This document shows, in pieces, positions 24,328 to 52,403 of a stretch of 64,000 nucleotides of DNA. The stretch is taken from the NCBI RefSeq assembly GCF_021233415.1, contig NZ_CP089466.1:1302001-1366000 (forward strand), in the 5' to 3' direction. A program made the position numbers and the translations under genes. The notes under the pieces were generated by a model that worked only from the letters and a program-made list of their open reading frames with translations, had not been told where the DNA came from and did not search any database. The first letter of the stretch is position 1. The number at the start of each line of letters is the position of its first letter. Source of the stretch: Halobacterium litoreum. Its GTDB lineage: Archaea > Halobacteriota > Halobacteria > Halobacteriales > Halobacteriaceae.

Positions 24328-24361
24328 ACCCGCTCCGCTCGTCACCTACGTTCCTCGCAGA

Positions 24362-33341: not shown

Positions 33342-33426
33342 GAGGTATTCAACAGGGCATTGCGTCATGAGATAATGAATGTTCTGTCTATTGAGAGAAG
33401 AACGAACTCCTAACTCCTCATGACAT

Positions 33427-33482
33427 TGTCGCACTCCCTCAGAGAGTGCGACACATTCGCGCCGATTCACGCCCGAATCGGC
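33427..33482. repeat. Two perfect hairpin dyads between CBASS and the second recombinase
   Basis: Arms tgtcgcactc/gagtgcgaca (33427-33436 and 33444-33453, 7-nt loop) and gccgattc/gaatcggc (33461-33468 and 33475-33482, 6-nt loop). Both are perfect and they stand 7 nt apart. They could be regulatory, a terminator or a recombination site. Confidence 0.6.
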
Positions 33483-33535
33483 CCCGTCAGGGGGAAGATT
33501 CTAGGAGTTCCGTCGCACTTCTCGAAAAGAACGAC

Positions 33536-34117
33536 ATGCAGATGGAAGACCACAACGAGGACGACGGGCGCAAAGTCTGGCTCACCGAGGAGGAAGCCGA
33601 CCAGTTCCTCGACGCCGCCGACGACACCCAGCAGTGCATCGCGTTCGGCCTCGGCCTCCGCTGCGGCCTGCGCTGCAAGGAAATCGTCGACGCCACCCCG
33701 CGCGACGTGACCGACGGCCCCGCCGGGACGTTCCTGCGCGTGGAGCACGGCAAGGGCGGCAAGTATCGCGAGACGCCACTCCCTCAGGACCTCGCGACGA
33801 CCATCCAGACGGTCGGCGACCTCCGCGACGAGCCCGACGACGTCCCACTCGTCGATGTCTCGACGCGCACGGTCGAGCGGTGGGTCGAAAGCGCCCGTGA
33901 CGACCTCGCCGAGCACGAGGACGACGGCTGGACGTATCTCACGCCCCACGACCTCCGGCGGACGTGGGGCACGCTCCTCTGCGAGCGCGAGGTCGAGCCC
34001 GGACTCGTGATGGAGTACGGCGGCTGGGAGGACTGGGACACGTTCCGTGAGCACTACCTCGGTCAGTACAGCGTGAAGGCTCAGCAGCGAGCACGCGAGA
34101 AAGTGCCGTGGCTCTGA
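33536..34117 (+). CDS. Second, minimal tyrosine recombinase
   Basis: 193 residues that hold only the catalytic domain, without a usual SAM-like N-terminal domain. A full catalytic set is visible: Arg46 (GLRCKEIVD), Lys76 (GKGGKYRET), His138-x-x-Arg141 (TPHDLRRTWG), Trp/His around 163-173 and Tyr174 (FREHYLGQY). The ATG at 33536 is chosen over an open extension into the hairpins. It is not near either att site, so it may invert or move the cargo block, resolve multimers, or be the relic of a second element. Confidence 0.85.
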   Translation: MQMEDHNEDDGRKVWLTEEEADQFLDAADDTQQCIAFGLGLRCGLRCKEIVDATPRDVTDGPAGTFLRVEHGKGGKYRETPLPQDLATTIQTVGDLRDEPDDVPLVDVSTRTVERWVESARDDLAEHEDDGWTYLTPHDLRRTWGTLLCEREVEPGLVMEYGGWEDWDTFREHYLGQYSVKAQQRAREKVPWL

Positions 34118-35456: not shown

Positions 35457-35609
35457 ATGGCCACATCGCAATCGGGGCCACCGACGGGTGGTCCACACGA
35501 CGTTTCTGAAACGGGCGCTCGCAGCGAGATAGCGACGCGCCTCCAGCTTCGTGACGTCGCCGCGCTCGGTGACGACCTGCGGCGGCTTCTCGGAGGTGAC
35601 GCACAGTGA
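35457..35609 (+). CDS. 50-residue protein, first gene of the membrane/ATPase chain
   Basis: MATSQSGPPTGGPHDVSE to LLGGDAQ, a soluble helical peptide. Its TGA overlaps the next GTG (GTGA). Confidence 0.55.
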   Translation: MATSQSGPPTGGPHDVSETGARSEIATRLQLRDVAALGDDLRRLLGGDAQ

Positions 35610-36031
35610 ACGCGGGCGACGCCTTCGTCCGTGTTCTGGACACCGACCACCGCCACGACACGGTAACGCTCACTGTCGAAACCGCGGACGGCGACTCGTT
35701 CGGCATCCAGTACGCCACCGCGTTCGGCGAGAGCATCCCACCGCTCTGGAACCTCTGCTACGACCCACCCATTCAGGAGGTCGACTGGCTGGAGGAACGC
35801 CACAGCGGTGAGAAGTTCGTCGAGTACCGCGCGGAGACGACGGACTCGCTGGCCGCAGTGCGTATCGCCCACCAAATCAAGCAGGAGGTCGGCGGCGACG
35901 ACGCCGTCTTCGCCGACGCCTCGACGTACCAGCGCGGCAAGCCCATGCCCGCGTACTTCGAGGAGGCAGGCCGGCGATTCGCTGACGCTGCACGGGAAGC
36001 GTGGGGCGCGGTCGCGGGGGCTGTTCGATGA
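35606..36031 (+). CDS. Soluble 141-residue protein of the chain
   Basis: GTG start inside the previous stop. The first half is beta-rich (FVRVLDTDHRHDTVTLTVET); the end is helical (YFEEAGRRFADAAREAWGAVAGAVR). No TM segment, no known family. Coupled on both sides. Confidence 0.7.
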   Translation: MNAGDAFVRVLDTDHRHDTVTLTVETADGDSFGIQYATAFGESIPPLWNLCYDPPIQEVDWLEERHSGEKFVEYRAETTDSLAAVRIAHQIKQEVGGDDAVFADASTYQRGKPMPAYFEEAGRRFADAAREAWGAVAGAVR

Positions 36032-36144
36032 CCTCCGGGAAGTCGAGTCAGCACGAGCGCGCCGCCCACATGCGGCACTCCGGCCGCATCCGCGGTCGCG
36101 CGAAAGCCGCTCTCGCCCGTCTCCTGCGGAGGATCAAGCCGTGA
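36028..36144 (+). CDS. 38-residue basic peptide
   Basis: MTSGKSSQHERAAHM and a basic helix ending LARLLRRIKP. Starts in ATGA with the gene before, and its stop overlaps a GTG. Confidence 0.5.
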   Translation: MTSGKSSQHERAAHMRHSGRIRGRAKAALARLLRRIKP

Positions 36145-36194
36145 CGCGCCACGGAGTCGCATCGCTCGCTAACCGATTTTCATCCAACACATGA
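36141..36194 (+). CDS. 17-residue mini-ORF bridging two genes
   Basis: GTG start in the previous stop; its TGA overlaps the ATG at 36191. It may serve only to carry ribosomes across the gap. Confidence 0.35.
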   Translation: MTRHGVASLANRFSSNT

Positions 36195-37657
36195 ACACGA
36201 ACGCACTCACGAAGGTCGGCGTCGCGCTCGCGGCCATCTTCCTGATGGTCTCGGCAGCCGCGACGCCAGCCGTAGCCGCATCGACACTCAACTACGACGA
36301 CGGACAGGCACCGAACCCACAGTTCTCCACGGACGTCACGGTCGACTCCTGGGACAACGGCGAGTTCAACAGCCCGCTGGAGTATTACGACGACAGTGGT
36401 GACGCCGCCACGCTCGGCGGTGAACTGAACCGCTCGACCGACGTCGACGACCTCGGCACCGGGACGGTGAACCCAATCTCGCTGACGGCGACCGACATCA
36501 GTATCGCCGAGTTCGGCGAGTTCCCTCGGAAAGACGAGGGCGACAACGTGGCGTCGTTCCTCGACGCCTCCGAGTGGACGACCTCGGGCGCGAGCACGAG
36601 TGAAGTGACGACCGCGCCGAACGTCGAGGCCATCCGGTACACGGGCTCGGCGACCTCGGACGCCGCCACCTACGGGAACTTCAGCATCTCGTCGTCGGCG
36701 GAGAAGCGGTACATCCAGATTGCCGCGGACGTCACCTCGGCGTCTGGCACTCCGGAACTTCGCGTGGAGGACCAGGACGGCGACTACGTCGCTGTTGAAC
36801 TGTACAACTCGTCGGCCAACCAGAGCGCGGACGGCGTGCTCGCCAACCAGACCGGCGAGGGCCACGTCATGCAGGTTCAGGTCGGCTCCCTCGCGGTGCA
36901 GGGCTCCGGCGACGGCACCATCACGGACATCGCGGCGCTGAACGTGACGGGGCAGGCGACGGTCGACTTCTCGCTCGTGAACGTCGAGCGCACCTCGCCG
37001 TACACGTTCGGCGAGCGGTACGTCCAGACGGACGACGACGAGGAACTGGAGACGGAGACCATCCGCGAGCCGCACGGCGAGTACAGCGTCCACAGCGTGG
37101 ACACGCTCGGCGCGATGTTCGACGACGCGGTCGTGAAGGGTCTGAGTTACCCCGCGCACGTCGAGGCGGCGATGCTACCGGCGGAGGACGTGGATGCGAC
37201 GTTCAAGGGCGACAACGCGTACCCGCAGTGGGATTCGGTGGCGGACATCTACTACCGGATGACGCTCCCGGACGCGTACGACCTCTCCTACAGTAACGTC
37301 GAGCTCTCGCAGACGAGCGAGTGGCCGGGCACGCGGTACGTCTCGGTCGAGATGGTCGAGGGCGCCGGCGACACGGACTTCGAGGACATCGAGTCGTGGA
37401 CGTCGCTCACGTCCTCGTTCGACGCGCAGGACAAGGACATCACGCTGGACTCGACGGTGTCGCCGGGCACGGAGTACGCGCTCCACTACGAAATCAAGCT
37501 CACGGGCGACGAGGCGTCCGCGATGCAGTCCGCGGGCGGCCCCGGCGTCATGGAGGGCGAGGGCGGCGGCTTCTGGTCGATGCTCTTCAGCCCCATCGGC
37601 GCCATCGGCACGGCTATAGCTGGACTCCTCACCGGTCGCAAGTTCGAGGTGATTTGA
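36191..37657 (+). CDS. Exported protein with C-terminal hydrophobic anchor
   Basis: 488 residues. Sec signal peptide at 1-30 (VGVALAAIFLMVSAAATPAVA), a long beta-rich, acidic ectodomain with several N-x-S/T sites, and a C-terminal hydrophobic segment FWSMLFSPIGAIGTAIAGLLTG followed by a positive RK. So it is a type-I-like surface protein held in the membrane at its C-terminus, such as a coat or spike component. No known family is recognised. Coupled to the next gene by TGATG. Confidence 0.78.
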   Translation: MNTNALTKVGVALAAIFLMVSAAATPAVAASTLNYDDGQAPNPQFSTDVTVDSWDNGEFNSPLEYYDDSGDAATLGGELNRSTDVDDLGTGTVNPISLTATDISIAEFGEFPRKDEGDNVASFLDASEWTTSGASTSEVTTAPNVEAIRYTGSATSDAATYGNFSISSSAEKRYIQIAADVTSASGTPELRVEDQDGDYVAVELYNSSANQSADGVLANQTGEGHVMQVQVGSLAVQGSGDGTITDIAALNVTGQATVDFSLVNVERTSPYTFGERYVQTDDDEELETETIREPHGEYSVHSVDTLGAMFDDAVVKGLSYPAHVEAAMLPAEDVDATFKGDNAYPQWDSVADIYYRMTLPDAYDLSYSNVELSQTSEWPGTRYVSVEMVEGAGDTDFEDIESWTSLTSSFDAQDKDITLDSTVSPGTEYALHYEIKLTGDEASAMQSAGGPGVMEGEGGGFWSMLFSPIGAIGTAIAGLLTGRKFEVI

Positions 37658-38127
37658 TGGCCCAGCTAAGTCTGGGGGATGGTTCGCCGACCGCAGTCCT
37701 GTCGGGAGTGACATCGTTCATTTCCGCTGGCGGGAAGCTGGGGAATCTCCTGTCGGGCTTCGTGTTCGGCATGGGAGCATCCCTCTACATCGGCGTCGGC
37801 CGCATCATCAACGCGGTCGTCACGTTCATCACGACTCCCTTCGAGTCCGGCGCGAACGCCATCGGAACGCTCATCTCCGGGATTCTGGCATCCCCCGCAG
37901 AAATCCTCGAAATCACGGCGCAAACGACTGGCGTCCGGATTTCCGAGGAGTTCGGCTGGCTCGCGTTCGCCGTTGGTGTCGCCGTCGTACTGGGCTCGCT
38001 GTACATGGTGACCCAGTACCTCGAACAGGAGGAGACCGGGGACACGTTCGTCGGGCTGCCATTCGACACGCCGGACCTCGGCCCGTTCGAGATCGGCGTG
38101 ACCGAGGAGGGAGAAGACGAGCAATGA
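37657..38127 (+). CDS. Membrane protein of the chain (156 residues)
   Basis: Hydrophobic segments near 28-60 (LLSGFVFGMGASLYIGVGRII and INAVVTFITTPF) and 110-130 (LAFAVGVAVVLGSLYMV), with an acidic soluble tail (FDTPDLGPFEIGVTEEGEDEQ in two pieces). Unknown family. Start in the TGATG of the previous stop. Confidence 0.75.
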   Translation: MAQLSLGDGSPTAVLSGVTSFISAGGKLGNLLSGFVFGMGASLYIGVGRIINAVVTFITTPFESGANAIGTLISGILASPAEILEITAQTTGVRISEEFGWLAFAVGVAVVLGSLYMVTQYLEQEETGDTFVGLPFDTPDLGPFEIGVTEEGEDEQ

Positions 38128-38177
38128 CGCTGGTGCTCACCGCTCCTTCGACCGTTCAGCGGGGTGGTGAGCCGTGA
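38124..38177 (+). CDS. 17-residue mini-ORF bridging two genes
   Basis: ATGA start in the previous stop, and its TGA overlaps the GTG at 38174. Reads MTLVLTAPSTVQRGGEP. Probably a coupling device. Confidence 0.35.
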   Translation: MTLVLTAPSTVQRGGEP

Positions 38178-38611
38178 GTATCCTCGACCGGTTCCTCAAC
38201 ACGACCAGTGACTCCGGCGTCGGGTTCGAACTCGTCAACGTCGCGAACCCTGTCAACTGGACGGGCCTGACGAAGGCACTCGTCTCGTCGTTCCTCGGGA
38301 CGATTGTTCTCGGCCTCCAGTACGGCATCGACGCTGTCGTCGGCTCGATTGTCGGCATCTTCCGAGGGCTGAGAGAGTGGCTCTACGACCCGCGAATTGT
38401 CTTCCGGTATCCCGGTGGAAAGCGCACGCTGGAGCCGCTCACCGGACTCATTCCACAAATCGAGGGCAGGCTTCTCGACATCATCGACGCCACGTTCACC
38501 GCGTACGCGGGGTTCGGCTGGCTGAGCTACCCGCTCGCAGTCGCCAGCATCCTCATCGCGCTGTACGTGCCGATTCGAGCGCTGGCGTACGCCCGCGAGG
38601 AGGTGCTGTAG
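38174..38611 (+). CDS. Membrane protein of the chain (145 residues)
   Basis: GTG start. TM-like segments are LVSSFLGTIVLGLQYGIDAVVG and LSYPLAVASILIALYVPI. The family is unknown. It precedes a similar-sized protein with 1 nt between them. Confidence 0.72.
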   Translation: MSILDRFLNTTSDSGVGFELVNVANPVNWTGLTKALVSSFLGTIVLGLQYGIDAVVGSIVGIFRGLREWLYDPRIVFRYPGGKRTLEPLTGLIPQIEGRLLDIIDATFTAYAGFGWLSYPLAVASILIALYVPIRALAYAREEVL

Positions 38612-38612
38612 C

Positions 38613-39080
38613 GTGCCTCCGTGGGTTCCCAGCCAGGTGCCGGATGTCAAAATCAAGTGGAAGAGCATCGTCAACGTCCCGACCCCGCTCAAGCGGTTCA
38701 TCGCGGCACCGGTCGCGTTCATGTTCGGGGCGTTCCTGAGCGTGTTTTTCGACGGCCTGGAAGTCGTCGTCACAGCGACGCTCGACGCGGTGCTCTTCGT
38801 CGTTGAGGGGGACGCCGTCGGCTCGACGGCCGGGATGCTCGGAATCGTCGACATTCCACGGCTGGCGGCAAACCTCCTCACGGGCGCCGGAGGCTGGGTC
38901 GGGACCAGCCTCATCACCGCCGTCGGTGACTTGCTCCTGACGCTTCGGGGCGTCGTCGCGGCGGCTGGGCCTGCGGCGCCGGTCCTTCTCGGGGTGATTC
39001 TCGCAGGGTTCATCGTCGGGTCAGCGCTCGCGGCGCGCTGGCTGTACAATCGGCTTGCAGACGTGATCGTACCACTATGA
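38613..39080 (+). CDS. Membrane protein of the chain (155 residues)
   Basis: GTG start. About four hydrophobic segments (VAFMFGAFLSVFFDGL, ATLDAVLFVVEG, GDLLLTLRGVVAAAG, VLLGVILAGFIVGSALAA). Overlaps the next gene by 4 nt. Confidence 0.72.
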   Translation: MPPWVPSQVPDVKIKWKSIVNVPTPLKRFIAAPVAFMFGAFLSVFFDGLEVVVTATLDAVLFVVEGDAVGSTAGMLGIVDIPRLAANLLTGAGGWVGTSLITAVGDLLLTLRGVVAAAGPAAPVLLGVILAGFIVGSALAARWLYNRLADVIVPL

Positions 39081-39373
39081 TAAGCAAATTCGAAGACATC
39101 GTCACGCATCCCGTCACGGTGGCGAGCGCGGCGCTCACGAGCGCCAGCCAACTGTTCACCGTGCCGTTTCTCGACGCGATGCTCGCGGTCGTCTACGCTA
39201 ACATCTCGACGTTGTTCACGGCCAGTTCTGTCGGCGCGTTCACCATCGTGCCGCGGCTGCCCGTGCCAGCGTGGCTCGGAGAGACAGCGCAGGTGACCGC
39301 GATTCTGCTCGGGCTCGGGTACGCGGGGAAGCTCGTGTACGGTGTCGCCAAAGACGCACAAGAGAGACTCTAA
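39077..39373 (+). CDS. Small membrane protein (98 residues)
   Basis: Hydrophobic middle (FLDAMLAVVYANISTLFTA) and C-terminal TM (AILLGLGYAGKLVYGVA). ATGA start. No family recognised. Confidence 0.7.
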   Translation: MISKFEDIVTHPVTVASAALTSASQLFTVPFLDAMLAVVYANISTLFTASSVGAFTIVPRLPVPAWLGETAQVTAILLGLGYAGKLVYGVAKDAQERL

Positions 39374-39375
39374 CA

Positions 39376-39726
39376 ATGCCAGACACACTCACCATCGTAC
39401 TCGGAATCGGCCTCGTGGCAGTTGTCGTGTACGCCCTCGGTTTCGGGCGGACCGCACGAGGCGCGAAGACAGGCGCATCGAAAGCGAAAGGACTCGCCAC
39501 CAGCACCGGCACCATGCTCGCTGGCGGCGCGATGAGCGGGCTCGTCGCGGGCGACGCACTCGCGCAGTACCTCGCGAGTGACCCCGCGGTCGCCATCGCG
39601 GGCGTCACCGGCCTGCTCGGCACGCTCGGCCTCGCCGGGCGCGTGTCGCTCACGCCACTCCAGTACGCGCTCATCGTGCTGGTGATGCTCATCGGGTACG
39701 CGGCCCTCACGAACGGAGGCGACTGA
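39376..39726 (+). CDS. Small membrane protein (116 residues)
   Basis: N-terminal TM (LTIVLGIGLVAVVVYALGFG), a Gly/Ala-rich helix and a C-terminal TM (YALIVLVMLIGYAAL). The pattern resembles small structural proteins of membrane-bearing viruses, but no match can be claimed. The start ATG lies 2 nt after the previous stop; a longer open frame upstream overlaps the previous gene and is discarded. Confidence 0.7.
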   Translation: MPDTLTIVLGIGLVAVVVYALGFGRTARGAKTGASKAKGLATSTGTMLAGGAMSGLVAGDALAQYLASDPAVAIAGVTGLLGTLGLAGRVSLTPLQYALIVLVMLIGYAALTNGGD

Positions 39727-39728
39727 CC

Positions 39729-39761
39729 ATGTCGGTCCTCGAACCGAGGTGGTCCCGATGA
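39729..39761 (+). CDS. 10-residue mini-ORF bridging two genes
   Basis: MSVLEPRWSR; its TGA overlaps the ATG at 39758. Starts 2 nt after the previous stop. Confidence 0.3.
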   Translation: MSVLEPRWSR

Positions 39762-39970
39762 CCCTCTCGTTCCAAGACGACATCCGGCTCCGAGATGTCC
39801 GTCGCCTCGACCCGGTGAATCAGGGGAACTTCGTCATGGGTCTCGTGACGCTGGCGCTGGCAGGCCAGGAGATTGCAACCGGCGGTCTCGCGTTCGCGGC
39901 GGCCTTCCTCGTCCTCGGACTGGTGAACCTCTGGGTCGTCGACCGGAAGCTCCGCGAGGTGTCGCCGTGA
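39758..39970 (+). CDS. Small membrane protein (70 residues)
   Basis: Soluble start (MTLSFQDDIRLRDVRRLD), then two short TM segments (GLVTLALAGQEIATGG and AFLVLGLVNLWVV). The next GTG overlaps its stop. Confidence 0.65.
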   Translation: MTLSFQDDIRLRDVRRLDPVNQGNFVMGLVTLALAGQEIATGGLAFAAAFLVLGLVNLWVVDRKLREVSP

Positions 39971-40284
39971 CGGAGGTCGAACGCTTCCAGCGTGCGGCGG
40001 CGTGGGTCGGCGCGCATCCGTACGCGGCGGCCGCGTCGGCGGCGTCGATGGTCGGCTTCTCGGTGACGCGCGGCGAGGTCGTCGAGTGGGTCGAGGGCGT
40101 CGTCGCGAACGCGGGCGACTACTACGCGCTCGTCGACCTCGGCGTCGAGGCTCTCGAATCGTTCCCGCTGCTCGGCGAGCCGCTCGCGATGATCGGGTCG
40201 CCCGCTGCGGGCACGCTCGGCCTCATCGTCCTCTGGAAGCGCGTTCGCGGCCAGAACGCCAGCGGCGGCGGAGGTGGCGCATGA
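39967..40284 (+). CDS. Small protein with membrane segments (105 residues)
   Basis: GTG start. Ala-rich helix (AAAASAASMVGFSV), a C-terminal hydrophobic stretch (IGSPAAGTLGLIVLW) and a Gly-rich tail. Coupled by ATGA to the 580-residue protein. Confidence 0.65.
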   Translation: MTEVERFQRAAAWVGAHPYAAAASAASMVGFSVTRGEVVEWVEGVVANAGDYYALVDLGVEALESFPLLGEPLAMIGSPAAGTLGLIVLWKRVRGQNASGGGGGA

Positions 40285-42023
40285 CCTCGCGTCGTGCGGC
40301 TATCGGCGTCTCGGTGCTCGTCTTGCTCTCGGTGCTGGCGGGCGTCGGCGCTGTCGCCGCTCAGGAGAGCCCGGAGGGCTGGGAGCCGCCGGGTCAGTTC
40401 CCCATCGAGGACCTCCGGCAGGGCGGCGCACAAGACCCGGACGCGCCCGACTCTGCGCGGATGCTCGGAAACCCGGTTCGCGGGTCGGCGGCGTGGCGGT
40501 ACACGCCCGTCAGTCCGCTCAAGCAGAGCACGCAGTACCTCGACTCTGGGCAACTGCTCCAGTCGGACAGGATGGAGTTCTACTCGACTGCCTTCGGCGA
40601 CGCCGCGGGCGAGTACACGCTCGTACTCGTCTACTGGAACGAGGAATCGAAGCGCGTGAACGGAACGCAGGTGACGTACGCGGCCGACCAGTCCGTCCAG
40701 CGCATCACGCTCGACGTCGAGGAGGGCTACGCCACCCAAGAGGTCGAACTGCGGTCGCACTACGACTCGAAGAAGCAGGTGACGGCGTGGCTGGAACGCG
40801 ACGGCGAAGAGGTTGAGGGCGCACGCTGGCGGTTCCAACACCGCAGTAACCCGCTCACCGCCTCACCTGGGTACCCCATCAACTCGAAGAGCGACATCTG
40901 GCGGTGGGCCGCCATCAACATCTTCCTGCCCGGCGTTCCGGGCATCCTCATCGGCCGGCGTGCGGCGGGCCACGTTCTCGACCGGACGATTGTCGGGCCG
41001 CAGAAAGGCGGGTTCTGGTGGGCGATCGTGCTCGCCGGCCTCCTGTTGGTCGCGCTCGCGGTCGGCACGTGGCAGACCGCCGCTGTCCTCTCGCGAGCCC
41101 CGTACGTCGCGGGCCTGTTCGTCGCGATGTTCTCGTTCGCGGCGTTCCTCGGGTTCCGCGACCAGGAGGTCGAGCGCGCCGAGTTCAACCAGAAGGACCT
41201 CGAAACGGTCACCTCGGTTTCCGGCGAGGACTCGAAGCGCGCCCGCCACGAGGACATCCAACTTCTCGACATCATCCGGCGGGACGGTAAAATCTACACG
41301 CCAGCGCCGGGTCTTCGGCCGTTCTTCGCGCGGTACTGGGCGGACCCTGCGCACGTCGACGAGACGGACCTGAAGACGGTGAACAACACGAGCGGTGACG
41401 TCTCGAAGAAGTACGAACTCGACCCGCAGGCCGACGACCCGCTCGTGCGGACGCCGGCCCGCCTCGCGTTCGAGCCGGCGTTGACGACCGACGAGGAGCC
41501 GGAGCCAGTCTTCGAGCCGGAAGACGACACGGAGTCGCTGTCGACGCCGCACCAGGTGGTGAACTCCATCGCGGGCGGGCTCGGTACGTTGAACCTCGGG
41601 TTCCTCGGGCCGGCCATCCTCGGTGGGGCGCTCGTCTACTTCGGGGTGAAGGCGTGGCTCGGTGTCCCGTCGATTGCAGCGCTGGCCGGCATCATGCCGG
41701 CAGTCGTGACGGGCTACACGGCCCACGACGGCTCGCTGGACATCGTCGAGGCCCCGTACCACTTCTCTGAGGCGAGAGCGATTCTCGCCGACGAGCGCGC
41801 GCAGTACGACGAGGCGTCGACGTTCGAGCAACTCCAGAAGCAGGTCGCCAAGATGGACATGGACGGCCACGAGCGCGTGCTCGACGTGCTGGAGTCCCAC
41901 TGGCAGAACAGCAGCAAACTCCTCGACGACATGCTCGGCGTCGAGGACCCAACCGACGGCGACGAGACCAGTCGGGAGCGGCCACGGCGGCCGCAGCGGA
42001 GCCGGGAGGCGGGTGACGACTGA
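40281..42023 (+). CDS. Polytopic exported protein of the chain (580 residues)
   Basis: A signal peptide (IGVSVLVLLSVLAGVGAVAA) is followed by a roughly 200-residue extracellular domain with an Asn-linked site. Three TM segments lie around residues 225-310 (one reads AIVLAGLLLVALAVGTW). A cytoplasmic part of about 130 residues, more TM helices at about 445-495 (LGFLGPAILGGALVYFG) and an acidic, helical C-terminal tail complete it. It could be the channel or scaffold of the putative assembly system, with the ATPase two genes downstream as motor. No known family. Confidence 0.75.
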   Translation: MTSRRAAIGVSVLVLLSVLAGVGAVAAQESPEGWEPPGQFPIEDLRQGGAQDPDAPDSARMLGNPVRGSAAWRYTPVSPLKQSTQYLDSGQLLQSDRMEFYSTAFGDAAGEYTLVLVYWNEESKRVNGTQVTYAADQSVQRITLDVEEGYATQEVELRSHYDSKKQVTAWLERDGEEVEGARWRFQHRSNPLTASPGYPINSKSDIWRWAAINIFLPGVPGILIGRRAAGHVLDRTIVGPQKGGFWWAIVLAGLLLVALAVGTWQTAAVLSRAPYVAGLFVAMFSFAAFLGFRDQEVERAEFNQKDLETVTSVSGEDSKRARHEDIQLLDIIRRDGKIYTPAPGLRPFFARYWADPAHVDETDLKTVNNTSGDVSKKYELDPQADDPLVRTPARLAFEPALTTDEEPEPVFEPEDDTESLSTPHQVVNSIAGGLGTLNLGFLGPAILGGALVYFGVKAWLGVPSIAALAGIMPAVVTGYTAHDGSLDIVEAPYHFSEARAILADERAQYDEASTFEQLQKQVAKMDMDGHERVLDVLESHWQNSSKLLDDMLGVEDPTDGDETSRERPRRPQRSREAGDD

Positions 42024-42814
42024 TGCCGGACTCCGCACTCGCCGATCTCCTCGAACCCCACGGCGACGACGCTGGCCACGACTCCCAGCACGCGTGGGTG
42101 CCGGGGCTCCCGACGCTTCGCGCCCAGCAGAACGAGCTGGTGAATCGACTCCGGAGCGGCTTCGAGACCCGTGAGGACGTGTTCCTCTGGACGCACGCGG
42201 TCGCCGCGCTCTCGTTCGGGCACGTTCCCGACGCGTGGTTCTTCGAGTTGCTGAGCGACCGGTTCCGCGTCGCCGCGCTCCTCGACGACCAGAACACACG
42301 CGAGCGGATGGCGACGCATCCGCCGAACGACAGCCAAGCCGACTTCGTGCGGGACAGCATCCAGCAGGCGACGCTCTCGGAGGCGTTCCGCGCGAGCCGG
42401 GCGGACATCCGGGCGACCGCCGCGGACTTCACGGACGGCGAAGGCGGCGTGGGCGACCCGGAGAGCCAACGCTTCCTCGGGATGCGGCCACGCCTCCACC
42501 AAATCGCCGTCGAGCAACACCGCGCGCTCAGGAGCGCGTTCACCGCCTTTCAGTCGCGGCGGGCGGTCCTCGACTGGGTCGACCACCTCGACTACGCCAC
42601 GCTCGGATTCCTGCCGGCGGGCTTCCCGTCGACGGTGACGAACCCGTCCTCGGACTGGTGGGCGGTGCTTCGGCAGTCGGAGAGCAGCGTCTGGCTCCAA
42701 CTACGGCTGGCGCAGACGGTGCTGCCGGCGATGAACGAGGCGCTGCGGGAGGCGATGGAGACCGGCACGGAGGAACCGGACAAGCTGAGCGAGATGGAGG
42801 TGCCATCCGGATGA
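42023..42814 (+). CDS. Soluble helical protein next to the ATPase
   Basis: 263 residues, no TM or Cys motif, rich in helices and charged residues (AVEQHRAL-type repeats, ALREAMETGTEEPDKL). Starts in TGATG and overlaps the ATPase start by ATGA. The location suggests an ATPase cofactor or adaptor. Confidence 0.7.
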   Translation: MPDSALADLLEPHGDDAGHDSQHAWVPGLPTLRAQQNELVNRLRSGFETREDVFLWTHAVAALSFGHVPDAWFFELLSDRFRVAALLDDQNTRERMATHPPNDSQADFVRDSIQQATLSEAFRASRADIRATAADFTDGEGGVGDPESQRFLGMRPRLHQIAVEQHRALRSAFTAFQSRRAVLDWVDHLDYATLGFLPAGFPSTVTNPSSDWWAVLRQSESSVWLQLRLAQTVLPAMNEALREAMETGTEEPDKLSEMEVPSG

Positions 42815-44379
42815 GCACACAGGAACACGAACCTACTGACACCGACGACGACCGAGCGTACTGGACGCCCCCAGGCGACTACGACTGGGGCGAAGGAACC
42901 CGGCAGGCCCGCCGCCAGCGCGGCGAAGCCCTCGATGAGGACGACGCCGTCTTCGAGGACGGCACCGTCTGGACGGACGCTCACGAGATTCGCCTCGCGT
43001 CCGAACTCTTCGAGGCGGTGCCGGGCGAGTTCGACATGGACGACTACAACTGGGACGTCTACCCGGACACGCTCGTTCACGAGAAGCCCGCCGAGGAGAC
43101 CTCGTCGGCGGGCGGGACGGACTGGCTGGCGCTCGGGAAGCGCGGCGCCGGGAAGACGACACACAACCGCTTCTGGGCGCTCCGCGTGATGGAAGCGAAC
43201 CCGGACGAAATCGTCGTCTGGCGCGGTAGCCCGTCCCGCTCCGGGTGGGCGGGCCTCCGCGAGTGGGCGACTGTCTGGCTTCCGGAGAACGCGAGCGTCG
43301 ACGCGACGTGGCGCGCGGAACGCCGCGGCGTCGCCCCGGAGGACGTCAACCTCGACGACGTTGTTCGGCAGGTGCGGCGGTACGAGGACCCGGTGGACCT
43401 GCTCGACCAGCTCGGCGAGCAGCCCGGCGGGACGTTCCACGTCGTCTACCCGGACCCGTCGTTCACGCGCTGCGAGGAACTGACGGCGGACTCCGACCGC
43501 GTCTCCGAGTCCCTCCCGTTCACGGCCGCGTGGGAGACGATGGGCGAGGAGACGGCGACGCCGCTCCAGCACTGGTGGTTCGCGTTCGCGCTCGCGGCCG
43601 TCGACTACCGGAGCGCGCAGTACTGGCTGTCCCTCATCTTCGACGAAGCCGGCGACCTCGCGCCCGAAGACGCTGAGGAAGACGACCATCGGACGTGGGC
43701 GAAGGTGTCGATGCTCCGCTCCATCTACGCCGATAGCCGGAAGTTCCGGTTCTCGATGTACTGGAGCGCCCACTACGAGGCGAACCTCCATCCGAAGTTC
43801 CGGCGCGAGGTCGAGCGCTACATCTCGATGCCGGACGGAAGCCCGAATCCGACCACGAACCGCTCGCGGTCGGTGCCGCTCGGCTTCGACACGGTCCCGA
43901 TGATTAGCGACCTGATGGGCGGCCGCGACGTCGGGACGGCGCTCATGTTCGACGAGAGCGAGTTCCAGCTCTACCGCTGGCCCGACCTCTCGCGGCGGGA
44001 CGGCGACGACCGATGGCTGAAGATTCGCCTCGACGAGCCGACCGGCACCGAGGAGGAGTCCGGGCCGACGCTGGAGTACGACTCGTCGGTGTTCAAGCGC
44101 TGGAGCGCGGGCGACGAGGACCGCTTGTACGTGCGCGACCCAGGCGCGGGCTACGTGGACGCCGTCACCGGCGCCGAGGTCGAGGCGCTCGAATCGCCGA
44201 AGGAAGGCCTGGAGTTCACGGGCATCCGAGAGGTCGGCGACGAGCGTCTCGTGTCGATGCGAACGCGGGCTGACGAGGAGGAAATCGTCGTGGCTCGCAT
44301 CCCGATGCACGATGCCGGCCTCGACGGCGCCGAGTCGGGGAGTGGTTCGGTCGAAATCGAGGGAGGTGGCGGCCGATGA
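42811..44379 (+). CDS. P-loop ATPase of the membrane-protein chain
   Basis: 522 residues. Walker A LGKRGAGKTTHN at about residue 108-119 and a Walker B LIFDEAGDLAP at about 275-285. The order and spacing resemble FtsK/HerA-type or packaging/transfer ATPases (DNA pumps), but it is too divergent to place. No TM segment. Being the only NTPase in the chain, it is the likely motor for DNA packaging, transfer or membrane assembly. Confidence 0.8.
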   Translation: MSTQEHEPTDTDDDRAYWTPPGDYDWGEGTRQARRQRGEALDEDDAVFEDGTVWTDAHEIRLASELFEAVPGEFDMDDYNWDVYPDTLVHEKPAEETSSAGGTDWLALGKRGAGKTTHNRFWALRVMEANPDEIVVWRGSPSRSGWAGLREWATVWLPENASVDATWRAERRGVAPEDVNLDDVVRQVRRYEDPVDLLDQLGEQPGGTFHVVYPDPSFTRCEELTADSDRVSESLPFTAAWETMGEETATPLQHWWFAFALAAVDYRSAQYWLSLIFDEAGDLAPEDAEEDDHRTWAKVSMLRSIYADSRKFRFSMYWSAHYEANLHPKFRREVERYISMPDGSPNPTTNRSRSVPLGFDTVPMISDLMGGRDVGTALMFDESEFQLYRWPDLSRRDGDDRWLKIRLDEPTGTEEESGPTLEYDSSVFKRWSAGDEDRLYVRDPGAGYVDAVTGAEVEALESPKEGLEFTGIREVGDERLVSMRTRADEEEIVVARIPMHDAGLDGAESGSGSVEIEGGGGR

Positions 44380-44495
44380 CCGGGGTCCCGGTCGTTCGCG
44401 GCGGGTTCACTCGGCGGCGACCGACACGTACACGCGCGCGTAGATTTGCGATTCAGCCCCACCCCCCTCGCTCAGGAGGTGATTCCGCGTGGTGA
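44376..44495 (+). CDS. 39-residue Arg-rich ORF bridging two genes
   Basis: Starts in ATGA with the ATPase stop and ends in a TGA overlapping the next start region. Reads MTGVPVVRGGF then an Arg-rich run. It may be a coupling device rather than a functional protein; a strong ribosome-binding site follows inside it. Confidence 0.35.
   Translation: MTGVPVVRGGFTRRRPTRTRARRFAIQPHPPRSGGDSAW
44473..44483 (+). promoter_or_regulatory. Near-perfect Shine-Dalgarno before the 1031-residue gene
   Basis: The sequence caggaggtgatt fits the 3' end of archaeal 16S rRNA and lies about 6-8 nt before the GTG at 44489. Such SD sites are rare in haloarchaea, where leaderless or coupled starts dominate. Confidence 0.7.
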
Positions 44496-47400
44496 AACTG
44501 AGCCGCGACCAACTCTCGGTCGTCGTGCTCGCGGTGGTGCTCGTGCTGTCGGCGGTGGTCATCACGCCGGGCATGGTGTTCCCGACGGGCGGCGACGACA
44601 CGGACGCGTCCGCGGGCCGCACGTACGACGGGACCGAGTCGGGGCTGATGGCGGTGCCGGACGACCACACGCGGACGGCGAGTGAGGAGACGGCGGGCCT
44701 CGGGTCGCAGGTGCGCGCGAGTCAGGGCGCCCAAACGATGCAGGTGACCGTCACCGAGCGCGACGGCGACGTGGCGCTCGAACTGACGGACGACCGGATT
44801 CACGACGGGCGCTGGGTGTCGGTGCCCGCGAAGTGGTTCCGCGAGGCGCTCGGGAACGTGCCCGAGGTCGCGTACATCGAGCACGAGTCCGGCCGCGAGT
44901 ACGAGTCCCAGATTAGCGTCAGGGGCGGCGACGCCGCGTTCTACGTCCAGGGATTCAGTACGAACACGGTCACGTTCAGCGGCGAGGTCTCCGTCGGCGG
45001 GACGTACAGCAACGGCTCGTCTGTCCAGTACGAACTCTCGAATTTGGACTCGGCGTCTGACCCGCTGCTCAATGTGACCGGCGTGGAAACCGGAGAGAAC
45101 GACACCGAATCCGGGTCTATCTCGGGGTCGGGCACGGTGTCGTTGAGTCTCGCGTCGGATTCAACGGTTACGGGGCACAACGGGACGGGAACGAGTCCGC
45201 TTGTCTCGGTGACGCCGTATCGGTCTGATACGCCAACGCGAGCCCATGAAGGCGGATATTCACAGGACACAAGCCGGGCTGTTCTCGGCGGCGACCACCG
45301 GCGAACCGAGATAGTCCTGCAAGACGTGGGGCAGTCGGTTGATAGCGTCACGCTCAACCTACGGAGCGCGCCCACAGACGCCGGAGGATGGCGATACGAT
45401 GCCTACGTTGAGTGCGGAGTATCGGACGGCGATTACACCGGAGGCACGCAGGTCGTTGATGGCCTCAAACCCGTGGACGGCTATACCGGGAATTGGACGA
45501 TAGACGGCTTCTCGGTGGACACTTCCGGGTGTACGAACGCGCATTTCTCGCTCGTCAGTCAATCCGTGAGTTCGGTGGACACGTCGAAAACGTGGGAGAT
45601 TGGCGAGGACAGCGGCACGGTCGCGGACTTCGGTGCGCCGACCTTCGAGTATGAGGAAGGCGCTGACTCGGGGTCTGCGTATACGGTGTTCGGCGTGTGG
45701 TACAGTCCGGGCGAGGCACCGGACTCGGTGTCCGTGAGTGACGGCTACGGTAATTCCCACGATTTCACGAGCCTCACGGCGGGAGAGACGGTTTCCGCGC
45801 GGATGCCCATTAATCTCAACTCGTCGGGTCTCTCGGTATCCACGTCACCGAGCGCACCCGCCGACGTGACCGCCGAGTACCGGGAGTATACGGAAACGTT
45901 CGACCCCGCCATCGAACTTAACGGCCACACCGAATCCGTCTCCGGCACGCTCGCGGAGGGCGAGACGGTGTCGCGGAATTTCTCGAAGGACGTGCTCCGC
46001 GAGGGGACGAACTACGTGAACATCTCCGTGGGCGACGGGACGCTGTCGGCTGACGCGCCAGCGCCGGCAGTCGCGGTGAACCTTACGCACGACGCGACGA
46101 ACAAGCAGTCGGTCACCTACGACGGCGGCCAGTGGCGCGAGACGTACAACGTCAGCGAGACGTACGCGAGCGCCCGCAGTGAGGCGAGCCTGACAATTCC
46201 GTTCCAGACGGACGTCGTCGCCATCCAGTCCATCGAGGCGCAAGTGAACGGGTCGGGCTGGTCGTCGGTCGAACCCGAGAACTACAGCCTCTCGAACACG
46301 ACACTCGCAGTCGACCTCGACGACGTGAACGGCGGCGACATCCCGTCCGGAACGACGGTCGACGTTCGAACGACCGGCATCTCCGTCGACGCCATCAACT
46401 CCTCGATTACGGTCACCCAGCCGACGGCGCCGGGGCAGGCGTTGAACTCCACGGTCTCGCTCGACTCGTGGGGGCCGGACGCGGCGCTCGCGCTCTCCGG
46501 GACGCCGCGGGGCTCGCGGCTTCACTACACGACGAACGAGTCGTGGGACGCCAGCGAGCACGCCGTCCTCGACGCCAGCGGCGCGAACCAACTCTACTTC
46601 CCGGCGGCCACCTCGGGCGACTCGTTCCGCGTCCACACGCTCCCTGTCGACCTCTCGCCGGAGGCCGGCGAGATTCGGGCGCGTATTCCGGACGGACAGG
46701 TCAACCGGACCGCGCCCGTGTTCGCGGTGCAACCGGGCGAGACCGTGGGGAACGCGTACGACGCGACGTTCCTGAACGCGGAGGATGGCGAGGACTACAT
46801 CCTCTGGAGCAAGACGAACAACGTCGTCCTCGACTCCGCGACCGCCGGAAGTCCGGTGACGCTGACCGACGACGAGGACAACGTCGAGACGCTCCAGATT
46901 CGCCTCGACACGACCGGCGGCAGTAGCGGCGGCGGTGGCGACTCGGATGGGAGTGGTCCGGGTATCATCGCGGAGCCGACGACCGGCGGGAGCACGAACC
47001 TCGTCGCGCTCATCGGCTTGTCCATCCTCGCGGGCCTCGTCATCGTGGCGTCCCGAAACGACGGGCTCGTCGCCTCCGCGGGCGAAGACGCGGCAGACGG
47101 CATCGAGGAGACCCTCGGCGGCATCCCCGTCGCCGGCCCGCTTCTCGGGAAGAGCATCGGCGGCGTCGTCGAATCGACCGCGGGGCTCGCGGAGGGCATC
47201 GCGGGGAATCGGACGGTCGCGATGTCGATCGTGACGGCCATCCTCATCGGCGCCGTCCAGGGCGGCATCATCGAGGTGCCGCAGTCGAGCCTGACGCTCA
47301 TCGTCGTCGCGGGCATCGGCATCTACTCGCTGGTGGCGCTCCGGGAGTTCGGGGAGTTCACGACGGAGCGCTGGGCGGTCATCATGGTCGCGACGACGCT

Positions 47401-47584
47401 GGTGACGCTCCAGACGATGAGCGAGGAGTCGCTGCTCACGGCCATCGTCCAGAGTCGCGTCTGGCCGATTCTCGCCTTCGGCGGGCTCTACCTCGCGTAC
47501 AAGTTCGTGCAGGGCGTCCGCCAGCCGGACAACCCGACGAACGTCACGCTCGACCTCAGCAACGAGGGAGGTGACAGTCAGTGA
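44489..47584 (+). CDS. Giant surface protein with C-terminal TM bundle (1031 residues)
   Basis: An N-terminal TM (LSVVVLAVVLVLSAVVI) leads into an ectodomain of about 780 residues. It is rich in beta strands and N-x-S/T sites. The part at about residues 170-470 uses more AT-rich codons. A Gly/Ser linker (SSGGGGDSDGSGPG) near residue 815 precedes five TM segments (for example LVALIGLSILAGLVIV and LTLIVVAGIGIYSLVAL). GTG start. Candidate host-recognition or fusion protein of the element. No recognised family, and it differs from pleolipovirus spikes in size. Confidence 0.78.
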   Translation: MVKLSRDQLSVVVLAVVLVLSAVVITPGMVFPTGGDDTDASAGRTYDGTESGLMAVPDDHTRTASEETAGLGSQVRASQGAQTMQVTVTERDGDVALELTDDRIHDGRWVSVPAKWFREALGNVPEVAYIEHESGREYESQISVRGGDAAFYVQGFSTNTVTFSGEVSVGGTYSNGSSVQYELSNLDSASDPLLNVTGVETGENDTESGSISGSGTVSLSLASDSTVTGHNGTGTSPLVSVTPYRSDTPTRAHEGGYSQDTSRAVLGGDHRRTEIVLQDVGQSVDSVTLNLRSAPTDAGGWRYDAYVECGVSDGDYTGGTQVVDGLKPVDGYTGNWTIDGFSVDTSGCTNAHFSLVSQSVSSVDTSKTWEIGEDSGTVADFGAPTFEYEEGADSGSAYTVFGVWYSPGEAPDSVSVSDGYGNSHDFTSLTAGETVSARMPINLNSSGLSVSTSPSAPADVTAEYREYTETFDPAIELNGHTESVSGTLAEGETVSRNFSKDVLREGTNYVNISVGDGTLSADAPAPAVAVNLTHDATNKQSVTYDGGQWRETYNVSETYASARSEASLTIPFQTDVVAIQSIEAQVNGSGWSSVEPENYSLSNTTLAVDLDDVNGGDIPSGTTVDVRTTGISVDAINSSITVTQPTAPGQALNSTVSLDSWGPDAALALSGTPRGSRLHYTTNESWDASEHAVLDASGANQLYFPAATSGDSFRVHTLPVDLSPEAGEIRARIPDGQVNRTAPVFAVQPGETVGNAYDATFLNAEDGEDYILWSKTNNVVLDSATAGSPVTLTDDEDNVETLQIRLDTTGGSSGGGGDSDGSGPGIIAEPTTGGSTNLVALIGLSILAGLVIVASRNDGLVASAGEDAADGIEETLGGIPVAGPLLGKSIGGVVESTAGLAEGIAGNRTVAMSIVTAILIGAVQGGIIEVPQSSLTLIVVAGIGIYSLVALREFGEFTTERWAVIMVATTLVTLQTMSEESLLTAIVQSRVWPILAFGGLYLAYKFVQGVRQPDNPTNVTLDLSNEGGDSQ

Positions 47585-47880
47585 TTTGGGGACTCCTCTC
47601 TGGGCTCGGGCTCGGCGAGCAGTTGTTCGCGGCGGGCCTGATGCTCGTCGTCGCGTGGTATCTACTGCGCGCGCTTTCGATGGCGGGCACGCTCGGCGTG
47701 GCCGTGTCCTCGGGCATCATGTACGCGGTCGTGACCGCAGTCGTGCTGGCGGTGGCGCTCGCGGCTGGCTGGCTCGACCCGCAGATGGGCGCTATCATGA
47801 ACGCCGTCTCGAAGGCCGAACACGTCTTTCGGACGTTCGTCGTGGACGTCGTCGAGTCGGCGCTGGAGGGCGCGACGTGA
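47581..47880 (+). CDS. Small membrane protein (99 residues)
   Basis: Three TM-like segments: LFAAGLMLVVAWYLLRAL, LGVAVSSGIMYAVVTAVVL and ALAAGWL. GTG start coupled by GTGA to the previous stop. Unknown family. Confidence 0.7.
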   Translation: MIWGLLSGLGLGEQLFAAGLMLVVAWYLLRALSMAGTLGVAVSSGIMYAVVTAVVLAVALAAGWLDPQMGAIMNAVSKAEHVFRTFVVDVVESALEGAT

Positions 47881-48005
47881 GTTCCCCGCCAGTCCGTCTC
47901 TCGACGGTGCCGCCTGTGGCCTGTGTTCGGTGCGCGGTCGCCGCAGCGCATCCGTACGGTCACCACGCGGGGCGTTGTCTGAATTGCGGGCGGCTACGTG
48001 ATTGA
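47877..48005 (+). CDS. 42-residue zinc-finger micro-protein, last gene of the chain
   Basis: GTG start in the preceding stop. Two CxxC pairs (CVRC and CLNC) form one zinc site. Ends the 12.5-kb coupled chain. Confidence 0.6.
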   Translation: MSSPPVRLSTVPPVACVRCAVAAAHPYGHHAGRCLNCGRLRD

Positions 48006-49206: not shown

Positions 49207-51135
49207 TCAGTCGGTCAGTCTCGGGTACGGGTCGACGCGAACGCGAACGTGCTCGGCGTCGATGGCGTCCTCGTCGAGCGCGTAGCCGAGTGCCTGTCCG
49301 TCGATCGGCACCTCGTCGAACGGTTCCCAGTTCGCGACGTCGTCAGCGTCGGGCTCGTCGGCCCGATCGTCGGAGTCCTCGTCGCTGGTCGTGGACAGGT
49401 CGACGTCGAGGCCGAGGTCGTCGACGATTCCCTCCAGGTCGTCGGGCTCGTCGGCGTCGCGAAGGTCGTCGCGCGTGTAGACGGCGTCCTCGCGGACGGC
49501 CTCGACGAGCGTGTCGGCGTCATCATCGGAGAGGCCAAGGTCGGTGAGGTGGTCGTGGACGCGGTCGTCGGCGCGGTCGCTGCGGTCCTCGGCCAACTCT
49601 TCGCGGTCGGCCTGAATCGCGTCGATCGCGTCGGCGCCGAGGTCCTCCAGGTAGCGACTGGAGAACGCGACCAGCGTCTTCGCGCCGCGGGTCCGTGAGA
49701 GGAGGCCGGGGGCGTCGTCGCCGCCGACGCCGTCGGCGAGCCGGCGGACGTGCTCGCGGATGGTTCGCTTCGCGGCGCCGGTCTCCGCGACGAGATCCTC
49801 GTAGGTCACCTGACCGCGGCGACGGACGACGTCAAGGATGTCGAGCACGAGGTCGGTGCGCGTCCGCGTGGCCTCGCGGTAGAGGGCGGGCTGGAGGCTT
49901 TCGTAGTGCTTGCGGAGCCAGTAGCGGCGGCCCTCGGGGTGGTTCCACTGGACGCGTGGGTTCTCGGGGCCGTCGCTGTAGTCGTCGGCGACGAGGTCCG
50001 CCTCGGTCACGTCGGCCCACTGGAGGTGCGAGAGGAGAATCTCGTCGAGGATAGCCATGACTTCGTCCCAGCGCTCCCAGGGAATCATCTTCTCGGAGCG
50101 CTGGCCGGTCTCCTCGTCGACGACCGTCTCCTTCCCGTTGAGCGCGACCTCCAGTTTCGGCTGGTCGAGCGGGTAGTCGACGCGGTCGGGGTCTTTCGGG
50201 TAGTAGAGCTTGATGAGAATCTCGGCGTCGAGGCGCGGGAAGCCGAGTTGCTCCCACTCGCTCGTGCGAATCTTCGCTTCGAGCCATTTCGAGTCCTCGT
50301 GCACGCCAGTGGTCTCGACGTCGGCGTCGTGTTTCGCGAGGAGTTCCGCACTCTGGCGAATCGTGTGCACGATGTCGCCTTCGACAGTCTCGTCGGCGCG
50401 GTGATGCACTTCGGCCTTCCCGAAGCCGGCCGATTCGGTGACGACGTCTTTCTGACGAACGCCGTAGTTGAGGGTGTGGCCGAGGAGGTGGGCGGCGCGT
50501 TCGAGGAACTCCTCGGTCTGGTCGACCCAGGTACTCTGGACGCGCACGAGCGTACCCTCGCCGTGTGGGAGTCGGAAGTCGTTGCCGTCCGGGTAGACGA
50601 GAGCTTCGTCCTGTGGTTCCAGTTTCAGCGAGAGGGAGCGCGGTGGCGTGCGCTTCCACGCGATGCTCCCGTCGTCGTTGATTGGCTGGACGGTGAGGTC
50701 GTAGCTGTACCAGGGACTGTAGTCGTCGCTGGTGCCGGTGCCTGCCTTCCACGGGCTCGACCGGAGCGTGACGGCGTACTCGTCGTCTTCGTCCTCGGCG
50801 GGATGCTCGTAGGAGCGCGTGAGTACCGCGTAGTCGCGCCCCGTGTGGGGGTTGGTGATGAAGTCGTCTTCGTGGGCGTACCACGCCGCACGGGCGTGCT
50901 GGTAGACGCTCCCGTTGGGGATGCGGCGACCGTCGTCACCGAGGTCGAACTTCGAGGTAACGCCGTCGCCGGCGCGGTCGGTGTCGGCGAGGACGAACTT
51001 GCCGCCGCCACCATGGCGCGCGCCCTGCGGGAGTACGCAGCGTGTCGTGGTGATGCCCTCGGCGCGGTCGAGGTCGAGGCTCTCGTAGGGGTTTCGAACG
51101 CGCGAGACCGCGGGAGGCGTGTCCGAGCGGCTCAC
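49207..51135 (-). CDS. Large protein of the right operon with winged helix and acidic tail
   Basis: 642 residues from a GTG start (MSRSDTPPAVSRVRNPYE). The first 420 residues are of unknown fold, with His/Asp-rich segments. At about 440-500 there is a winged helix (VRRRGQVTYEDLVAETGAA, then TIREHVRRLADG). The last 150 residues are very acidic and probably extended. Its stop ends the right operon. Replication initiation or regulation of the element is possible by position, but nothing diagnostic is visible. Confidence 0.7.
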   Translation of the reverse strand: MSRSDTPPAVSRVRNPYESLDLDRAEGITTTRCVLPQGARHGGGGKFVLADTDRAGDGVTSKFDLGDDGRRIPNGSVYQHARAAWYAHEDDFITNPHTGRDYAVLTRSYEHPAEDEDDEYAVTLRSSPWKAGTGTSDDYSPWYSYDLTVQPINDDGSIAWKRTPPRSLSLKLEPQDEALVYPDGNDFRLPHGEGTLVRVQSTWVDQTEEFLERAAHLLGHTLNYGVRQKDVVTESAGFGKAEVHHRADETVEGDIVHTIRQSAELLAKHDADVETTGVHEDSKWLEAKIRTSEWEQLGFPRLDAEILIKLYYPKDPDRVDYPLDQPKLEVALNGKETVVDEETGQRSEKMIPWERWDEVMAILDEILLSHLQWADVTEADLVADDYSDGPENPRVQWNHPEGRRYWLRKHYESLQPALYREATRTRTDLVLDILDVVRRRGQVTYEDLVAETGAAKRTIREHVRRLADGVGGDDAPGLLSRTRGAKTLVAFSSRYLEDLGADAIDAIQADREELAEDRSDRADDRVHDHLTDLGLSDDDADTLVEAVREDAVYTRDDLRDADEPDDLEGIVDDLGLDVDLSTTSDEDSDDRADEPDADDVANWEPFDEVPIDGQALGYALDEDAIDAEHVRVRVDPYPRLTD

Positions 51136-51254
51136 TGTGACCGCCTCCAGTAGTCGCGGCGGTCGAGAACCGGGTCGGCGTCGAGGCGCGCGACCTCGCG
51201 ACCCGTGAGGAACTCCACCGCGTGCTCGATACCACGACCAGACTCGTCGTTCAC
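51132..51254 (-). CDS. 40-residue protein of the right operon
   Basis: GTG start, MNDESGRGIEHAVEFLTG to DYWRRSQ. Coupled by GTGA overlaps at both ends. Confidence 0.55.
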   Translation of the reverse strand: MNDESGRGIEHAVEFLTGREVARLDADPVLDRRDYWRRSQ

Positions 51255-52388: not shown

Positions 52389-52403
52389 AGCGGGCCGGGC
52401 GCG
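52389..52403. repeat. attR core inside the tRNA-Lys 3' end
   Basis: Identical to 24362-24376. Its last 12 bp are the final nucleotides of the tRNA acceptor and T stem, so integration keeps the gene intact. Confidence 0.7.

Follow-up and report, generated by a model that had tools for sequence, protein, structure and literature searches.

Gene chain and integrated element

The window analysed here, a stretch of 64,000 nucleotides (nt; positions 1,302,001-1,366,000) from the main contig of the 2.7-Mb Halobacterium litoreum genome, contains a run of 15 supported genes on the plus strand (g1-g15, 35457-47880) that encodes small membrane proteins, exported proteins and a P-loop ATPase and lies in the middle of an integrated element. 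The run opens with two non-conserved leader genes, g1 (35457-35609, 50 amino acids (aa)) and g2 (35606-36031, 141 aa), followed by g3 (36191-37657), which encodes an exported surface protein modelled as two beta-sandwich domains, and by five genes for small membrane proteins: g4 (37657-38127, with a C-terminal transmembrane (TM) segment), its paralog g5 (38174-38611; hhalign 99.4%), g6 (38613-39080), g7 (39077-39373) and g8 (39376-39726). Two short variable genes, g9 (39749-39970, 73 aa) and g10 (39967-40284, 105 aa), precede g11 (40281-42023), encoding a 580-aa membrane protein, and g12 (42023-42814), encoding a 263-aa soluble partner whose position between g11 and the ATPase is conserved. 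The chain closes with the ATPase gene, g13 (42811-44379), with g14 (44489-47584), encoding a 1031-aa exported surface protein, and with g15 (47581-47880), encoding a 99-aa protein with two TM helices. Membrane topologies are predicted throughout.

A previous reading of the same DNA from its letters alone (the sequence-only reading) had described this region as a one-strand chain with several small membrane proteins, a signal-peptide protein with a C-terminal anchor, a 580-residue membrane protein and one P-loop ATPase. Gene calls bear out each of these elements, the anchored protein being g3, which ends in a hydrophobic helix, and the last two being g11 and g13. The finer layout had to be revised: 15 genes are supported instead of 17, and the four mini-ORFs also listed have no support. 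Neighbouring genes mostly overlap by 1-4 nt, but they are not all overlapping or within 2 nt of each other as had been stated, since gaps of 160, 47, 23 and 110 nt precede g3, g5, g9 and g14, respectively. Similarly, the chain does not extend to 48005; we take the 99-aa frame at 47581-47880, rather than the 144-aa frame at 47571-48005, as its last gene because the former is conserved as g15 in 15 of 21 relatives.

The element that surrounds the chain is delimited by a 17-bp repeat (attL, 24247-24263, unstranded) that is an exact copy of the 3' end of tRNA-Lys(CTT) at 52389-52405. This right-hand copy lies inside the 3' end of the tRNA, and the right end of the element spans 52389-52464 on the minus strand (tRNA itself 52390-52464, ARAGORN). 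A further partial copy of the tRNA-Lys 3' end is found at 24362-24376, and a gene for a 358-aa tyrosine recombinase (24433-25509, minus strand; Pfam Phage_integrase, E 2e-8) begins 170 bp inward of the 17-bp repeat. In addition, 66 bp spanning the left end are 89% identical to the sequence just beyond tRNA-Lys in a related genome (G292), which carries no module in the stretch fetched beside that tRNA. Together, the tRNA-derived direct repeat, the adjoining integrase and the likeness to the tRNA side of the related genome support the insertion of an element of about 28.1 kb at tRNA-Lys. Same-genus genomes did not yield a strict empty site, as gene order around the insertion point is rearranged in them, so that the comparative evidence comes from the tRNA side only. 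The two tRNA-Lys 3'-end copies lie in tandem at the left end (24247-24376), and in relatives tRNA-Lys fragments adjoin the tRNA, a pattern that suggests repeated insertions at this site.

Conservation of the module across the Halobacteria

Protein searches in a sample of 292 Halobacteria genomes from 77 genera identified homologs of g13 in 52 genomes (about 18%) and 19 genera, making them more than twice as common as the ATPase of pR1SE-type plasmids (23 genomes). We inspected 41 of the corresponding neighbourhoods, comprising a first set of 21 loci and 20 more distant ones. In the first set, g3, g13 and g14 are present in 21/21 loci and iterative profiles recover g4-g8 in 20 or 21 (g4, g7 and g8 in all, g6 in 20); g15 is present in 15, whereas g1, g2 and g10 have no relatives there and g9 has relatives in two loci only. 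Most of the module is likewise held by 19 of the 20 more distant loci, and thus by 40/41 neighbourhoods overall, the remaining one (L101) being a lone g13. A scan of named genomes, which shares genomes with these neighbourhoods, found the module in order in 39/39 loci, three of them on truncated contigs. We define the module core as g3-g8, g11-g14 and, usually, g15, in an order that is kept across the Halobacteria with some variation: g14 lies between g8 and g11 in several distant loci (L097, L098, L112 and L114), and five distant loci lack g3 (L102, L104, L108, L110 and L113). The sequence-only reading had proposed looking for the same gene order in other haloarchaeal genomes, and both the conserved unit and the mobile-element setting that it envisaged are supported by this recurrent order and by the element ends.

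Carriers include members of Halorhabdus, Halobellus, Halorubrum, Haloferax, Natronomonas, Haloplanus, Haloarcula, Halobaculum, Halorussus and Halomicrobium, and the module is also found on a 163-kb Halosegnis plasmid. A true plasmid-borne relative is pNG300 (NC_006391) of Haloarcula marismortui, a native circular plasmid of 39.5 kb that carries g4-g7, g11-g14 and, weakly, g15, spread around the circle and without a g3 homolog, and that also encodes an AAA/MCM-like ATPase and ParA. To judge by titles and abstracts, the module is the subject of none of the six papers in which pNG300 is named. Various tRNAs lie near other copies of the module, consistent with independent insertions. The H. litoreum element is one member of a family, widely distributed among haloarchaea, that comprises both plasmids and integrated elements.

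Every core gene is under purifying selection, with ratios of nonsynonymous to synonymous substitution rates (dN/dS) below 1 in close pairs and mostly of 0.04-0.3 in the closest pairs. Since dozens of genomes share this gene order and selection acts on every core gene, the chain is real, functional-looking and far beyond chance. The module does not evolve as a single block. In one pair of loci (L039/L048), g3-g8 are 83-97% identical and g12-g13 only 40-48%, whereas the reverse holds in another (L048/L049), with 26-36% identity in g4-g7 and about 81% in g12-g13. These opposite patterns of divergence demonstrate that the surface and small-membrane block (g3-g8) and the ATPase block (g12-g13) recombine, as expected for mobile elements sharing a pool.

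The genes accompanying the module vary as well. Within about 20 kb of it, the 41 loci encode an MCM-like protein (17/41), a recombinase like the small one of the H. litoreum element (13/41), a DUF7845 protein (12/41) or Orc1/Cdc6 (5/41), which indicates that the module has been combined with different replication genes. Depending on the relative, the MCM-like gene separates g12 from g13 or g13 from g14, or follows g15. The H. litoreum element itself encodes an Orc1/Cdc6-like replication initiator (30018-31022, minus strand; Pfam Cdc6_lid, 3.5e-14), a 785-aa DUF7845/winged helix-turn-helix protein (49207-51564, minus strand; Pfam DUF7845, 5.5e-15) and a 223-aa tyrosine recombinase (33446-34117, plus strand; Pfam Phage_integrase, 1e-16). 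The latter is the size of a catalytic domain and distinct from the 358-aa enzyme at the element end; the recurrence of its relatives beside the module suggests that it may be part of the biology of the module.

Some g13-type ATPases occur without the rest of the module on Haloarcula plasmids: pNG400 (L160, 18012-19499), pHsi55 (L163, 19902-21389) and a third (L161), each with a small integrase close to the ATPase gene; pHsi55 additionally encodes a type IV secretion system (T4SS) DNA-binding, VirD4-like protein. One further locus (L131, NZ_JAUDRZ010000015.1), titled Rhizobium sp. S152, carries a haloarchaeal module and is probably a contaminated assembly. Finally, a 37-nt segment of the g13-g14 intergenic region (44429-44465) recurs with 97% identity in one genome of the same genus (G067:C1:1108554), upstream of a frame resembling a GIY-YIG nuclease. 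We considered and rejected targeting by a CRISPR spacer, since this best short match lies outside any repeat array; a search of 40 relatives did not find the motif anywhere else.

Module proteins and known transfer systems

Alignment of g13 homologs shows Gly114-Lys115 of the Walker A motif and Asp278-Glu279 of the Walker B motif to be invariant. Searches with 20 of these proteins yielded only generic P-loop matches in Pfam, while all 20 matched the viral family PHROG 22963, which has no assigned function and whose founder virus was looked for and not found. The AlphaFold model of g13 (mean predicted local distance difference test (pLDDT) score of 74, about 90 in the core) returned Foldseek matches to HerA, to the genome-packaging ATPase B204 of STIV2 (TM-score to target about 0.57), to VirB4 (TrwK) and to the coupling ATPase TcpA. 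As judged from the model, these matches assign g13 to the FtsK/HerA superfamily and are compatible with a DNA-pumping role.

The g3 protein, with a predicted signal peptide and C-terminal hydrophobic helix, has a confident AlphaFold2 model (pLDDT 80.6) whose beta-sandwich domains partially match carbohydrate-binding modules, a tailspike and the turret of Haloferax tailed virus 1 (HFTV1), making a role in surface recognition plausible. For g11 we predict a signal peptide, an N-terminal domain, several TM helices and a cytosolic part, on the basis of the alignment and its TM profile. The 1031-residue surface protein of the sequence-only reading corresponds to g14, in which the prediction adds an N-terminal signal before a long, variable ectodomain and retains C-terminal TM helices; its homologs range from about 890 to 1430 aa. 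Homologs of g15 nearly always have two TM helices. Searches of Pfam, PHROG and the PDB returned no match to solved or named families for g11, g12 and g14. We rejected the assignment of g11 to PrgI/VirB3 (E 0.005), as this match appears in 1/19 homologs only, and that of g14 to the fusexins (Fsx1; PMC9259645), which its C-terminal TM helices had prompted and for which there was no PDB profile match at E<=1.

Among the closest known systems are the pR1SE-type apHPV plasmids, which combine exported and membrane proteins, encoded in two syntenic blocks, with a neighbouring HerA/VirB4-type ATPase and MCM or Orc1/Cdc6, carry no capsid or conjugation genes, and are defined by at least five of six core proteins (ORF6, 8, 17, 21, 23 and 24), an S8 serine protease (ORF7) and the ORF25 ATPase (PMC10818511). 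The elements described here share with them their setting in haloarchaeal plasmids and integrated elements, the blocks of exported and membrane proteins, the type of ATPase and the replication genes. Taking pHTUR05 (NC_013748) and 20 relatives of its ATPase neighbourhood as reference, we nevertheless found that nothing but signal peptides aligns between the 11 module families and the pHTUR05 core proteins (hmmsearch, hhalign). The one apparent exception, a match of g11 to RS24955 (hmmsearch E 1.6e-4, hhalign 84%), was discarded because it covers residues 1-25 only, that is, the signal peptide. Likewise, g13 and the ORF25 family align at 0.5% in hhalign and have only the HerA/FtsK superfamily fold in common (PMC10818511), and no S8 protease or other peptidase family, an apHPV feature, was found by Pfam among the larger module proteins (g2, g3 and g11-g14). 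The vesicle or pleomorphic-virus principle invoked by the sequence-only reading hence survives as a resemblance in layout, and a direct relationship with pR1SE-type plasmids is not supported.

A second parallel is the pT26-2 family of Thermococcales and Methanococcales, in which a transmembrane module of about 12 genes with a HerA/VirB4/B204-like ATPase has been proposed to mediate DNA translocation and whose core comprises seven proteins (t26-5, 6, 7, 11, 13, 14 and 15p; PMC6972569). The likeness extends to tRNA integration and to MCM in some members, but profile comparison of the module with the proteins of pMEFER01, a member of this family, reached at most 2.2%, and g14 lacks the Pfam domains that characterize T26-6p. 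The module is most likely a DNA-transfer apparatus encoded by the element, comparable to those of pR1SE, pT26-2 and the pleolipoviruses but belonging to none of these groups.

Proposed self-transfer function and other contents of the element

Haloarchaea exchange DNA across species and genera, and to our knowledge few transfer machines have been described in them. We propose that the gene chain is the self-transfer module of the 28-kb integrative element, acting through a membrane-bounded particle in preference to a contact channel, and we regard the evidence for this proposal as evenly balanced. Transfer is suggested by the element ends and integrase, by the conservation of gene order, by plasmid carriage, by purifying selection and block exchange, and by the DNA-pumping superfamily to which the modelled fold of g13 points. 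The element would excise via its tyrosine recombinase and replicate with Orc1/Cdc6, or often with MCM in its relatives; a patch in the cell membrane would be built from g11, g12 and the small membrane proteins (g4-g8, g15), g13 would pump element DNA across or into this patch, and the exported, anchored g3 and g14 would cover the outside and bind the recipient.

Between the two routes, a membrane particle appears somewhat more likely than a contact-dependent channel, given that there is only one pump, that the anchored proteins resemble a coat, and that the module parallels those of plasmid vesicles and pleomorphic viruses. Such a particle might be released from living cells without lysis, as a plasmid vesicle or a pleomorphic virion-like structure, a scenario that has about the same chance of being right as wrong. 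Two further observations are in keeping with it. Among the element proteins scanned against Pfam and PHROG, none fell into a family of relaxases, coupling proteins, capsids, portals, terminases or tails, in agreement with the sequence-only reading, which had likewise recognised no gene of capsid, portal, tail, relaxase or VirB type, and the specific profile match of the ATPase and its neighbours to a conjugation or head-packaging system that it had suggested looking for was not found by sequence. Moreover, the order g4-g8, g14, g11, g12, g13 of the variant loci parallels the pleolipovirus order of VP3, spike, ORF6, ORF7 and ATPase (PMC10599561).

Several results weigh against this proposal. 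The module has no homology to apHPV, the proven vesicle plasmid family, and its ATPase was not found in IMG/VR viral contigs or phage records, which would be unexpected if a released particle were abundant. The similarity between g13 and the pleolipovirus ATPase, which begins at the Walker B strand, extends to the C-terminus and reaches 90% in hhalign with six viral sequences, falls to 43% with 36 sequences and is best treated as a lead, not as homology. Nor does the lack of a recognisable relaxase preclude conjugation, since archaeal conjugative plasmids may do without one, as illustrated by the euryarchaeal pT33-3, which conjugates with VirB4/VirD4-like proteins only (PMC12857230).

This precedent, together with the Foldseek matches of g13 to VirB4 (TrwK) and TcpA and the many one- or two-TM proteins of the module, lends some weight to a contact-dependent, conjugation-like channel akin to a minimal archaeal T4SS, in which g13 would stand in for VirB4/VirD4, the pore would consist of g11 and the small membrane proteins, and g3 and g14 would act as adhesins. 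We consider it possible but unlikely: the module has just one ATPase, scans of its proteins and others of the element detected no family of VirD4, VirB3, VirB6, VirB8 or relaxase type, and the isolated PrgI/VirB3 match of g11 is weak. Furthermore, the scores of g13 against VirB4 are no better than those against HerA and the virus packaging ATPase, so that the VirB4 fold match is non-specific, and family profiles did not identify g13 as a VirB4/VirD4-type ATPase.

Less probable still is that the elements are diverged pleolipovirus-like proviruses, with g4-g8 as VP3-like proteins, g14 or g3 as the spike, g11 and g12 as ORF6 and ORF7 and g13 as the virion ATPase. The gene order of loci in which g14 precedes g11, the ATPase similarity and the uniform match of g13 to a viral PHROG would all fit such an origin. 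However, PHROG 22963 had to be rejected as a pleolipovirus ATPase family, as it hits 1/6 pleolipovirus records and does so marginally (0.001), and comparison of g3, g11, g12, g14 and g4-g8 with pleolipovirus proteins produced at most signal-peptide or noise-level stretches. Specifically, g3 and g14 reach at most 2% against the spike profile, no pleolipovirus spike is found among the PDB fold matches listed for the g3 model, and no VP3 match is found among those listed for g4-g8. The elements, at 28-40 kb or more, also exceed the 7-16 kb of pleolipoviruses, and the module is several times larger. Separately from the element, the H. litoreum genome encodes the ATPase of a pleolipovirus-like provirus (contig C1, 1760170-1761321; E 4.8e-132), and pleolipovirus-type ATPase profiles match in 183 of the 292 sampled genomes.

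The carbohydrate-binding-like beta-sandwich of g3, the large, length-variable g14 and the abundance of secretory systems in archaeal dark-matter islands (PMC4158269) could be read as signs of a secretion or cell-surface (adhesion or antagonism) system carried as cargo and not as the transfer machinery of the element itself, but this is very improbable in view of the DNA-pumping type of the ATPase and of the presence of the module, as for a transfer backbone, on plasmids and integrated elements with differing replication genes and tRNA sites.

On a bolder reading, which we hold to be somewhat less than an even prospect, the eleven-gene module would assemble a membrane particle of its own around the element DNA by means of a HerA-type packaging pump. 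It would then represent an independent lineage of DNA transfer by membrane particles in archaea, the fourth after pleolipoviruses, pR1SE plasmids and pT26-2 plasmids and distinct from them at the sequence level, and about one-sixth of haloarchaeal genomes would carry it. It would have gone unrecognised because its proteins lack family annotation, and we found no description of it in the open-access literature consulted on plasmids and vesicles of haloarchaea, on archaeal T4SS and on integrated elements, although one could exist elsewhere. Infectious membrane particles of this kind would imply more than one origin or divergence of vesicle-like DNA transfer, and would help to place such plasmids between viruses and plasmids. 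Carriers include culturable strains with native plasmids, such as pNG300, so that function is directly testable.

Besides the module and its companions, the element encodes a J-domain protein and a 545-aa CARDB-domain protein with a lipoprotein-like signal (28372-30009), relatives of which lie close to the module in three other loci (L050, L100 and L115). A cyclic-oligonucleotide-based anti-phage signalling system (CBASS) pair occupies a region of lower G+C content (about 50%) on the minus strand (31753-33470), with a CD-NTase at 32412-33470 (PADLOC cyclase, E 2.5e-104) and a Cap15-type 2TM effector at 31753-32427 (Pfam Cap15, 3.9e-23). Immediately to the left of the element, two neighbouring acetyl-CoA-synthetase-like genes (17847-19768 and 21999-23884) are 76% identical in DNA sequence.

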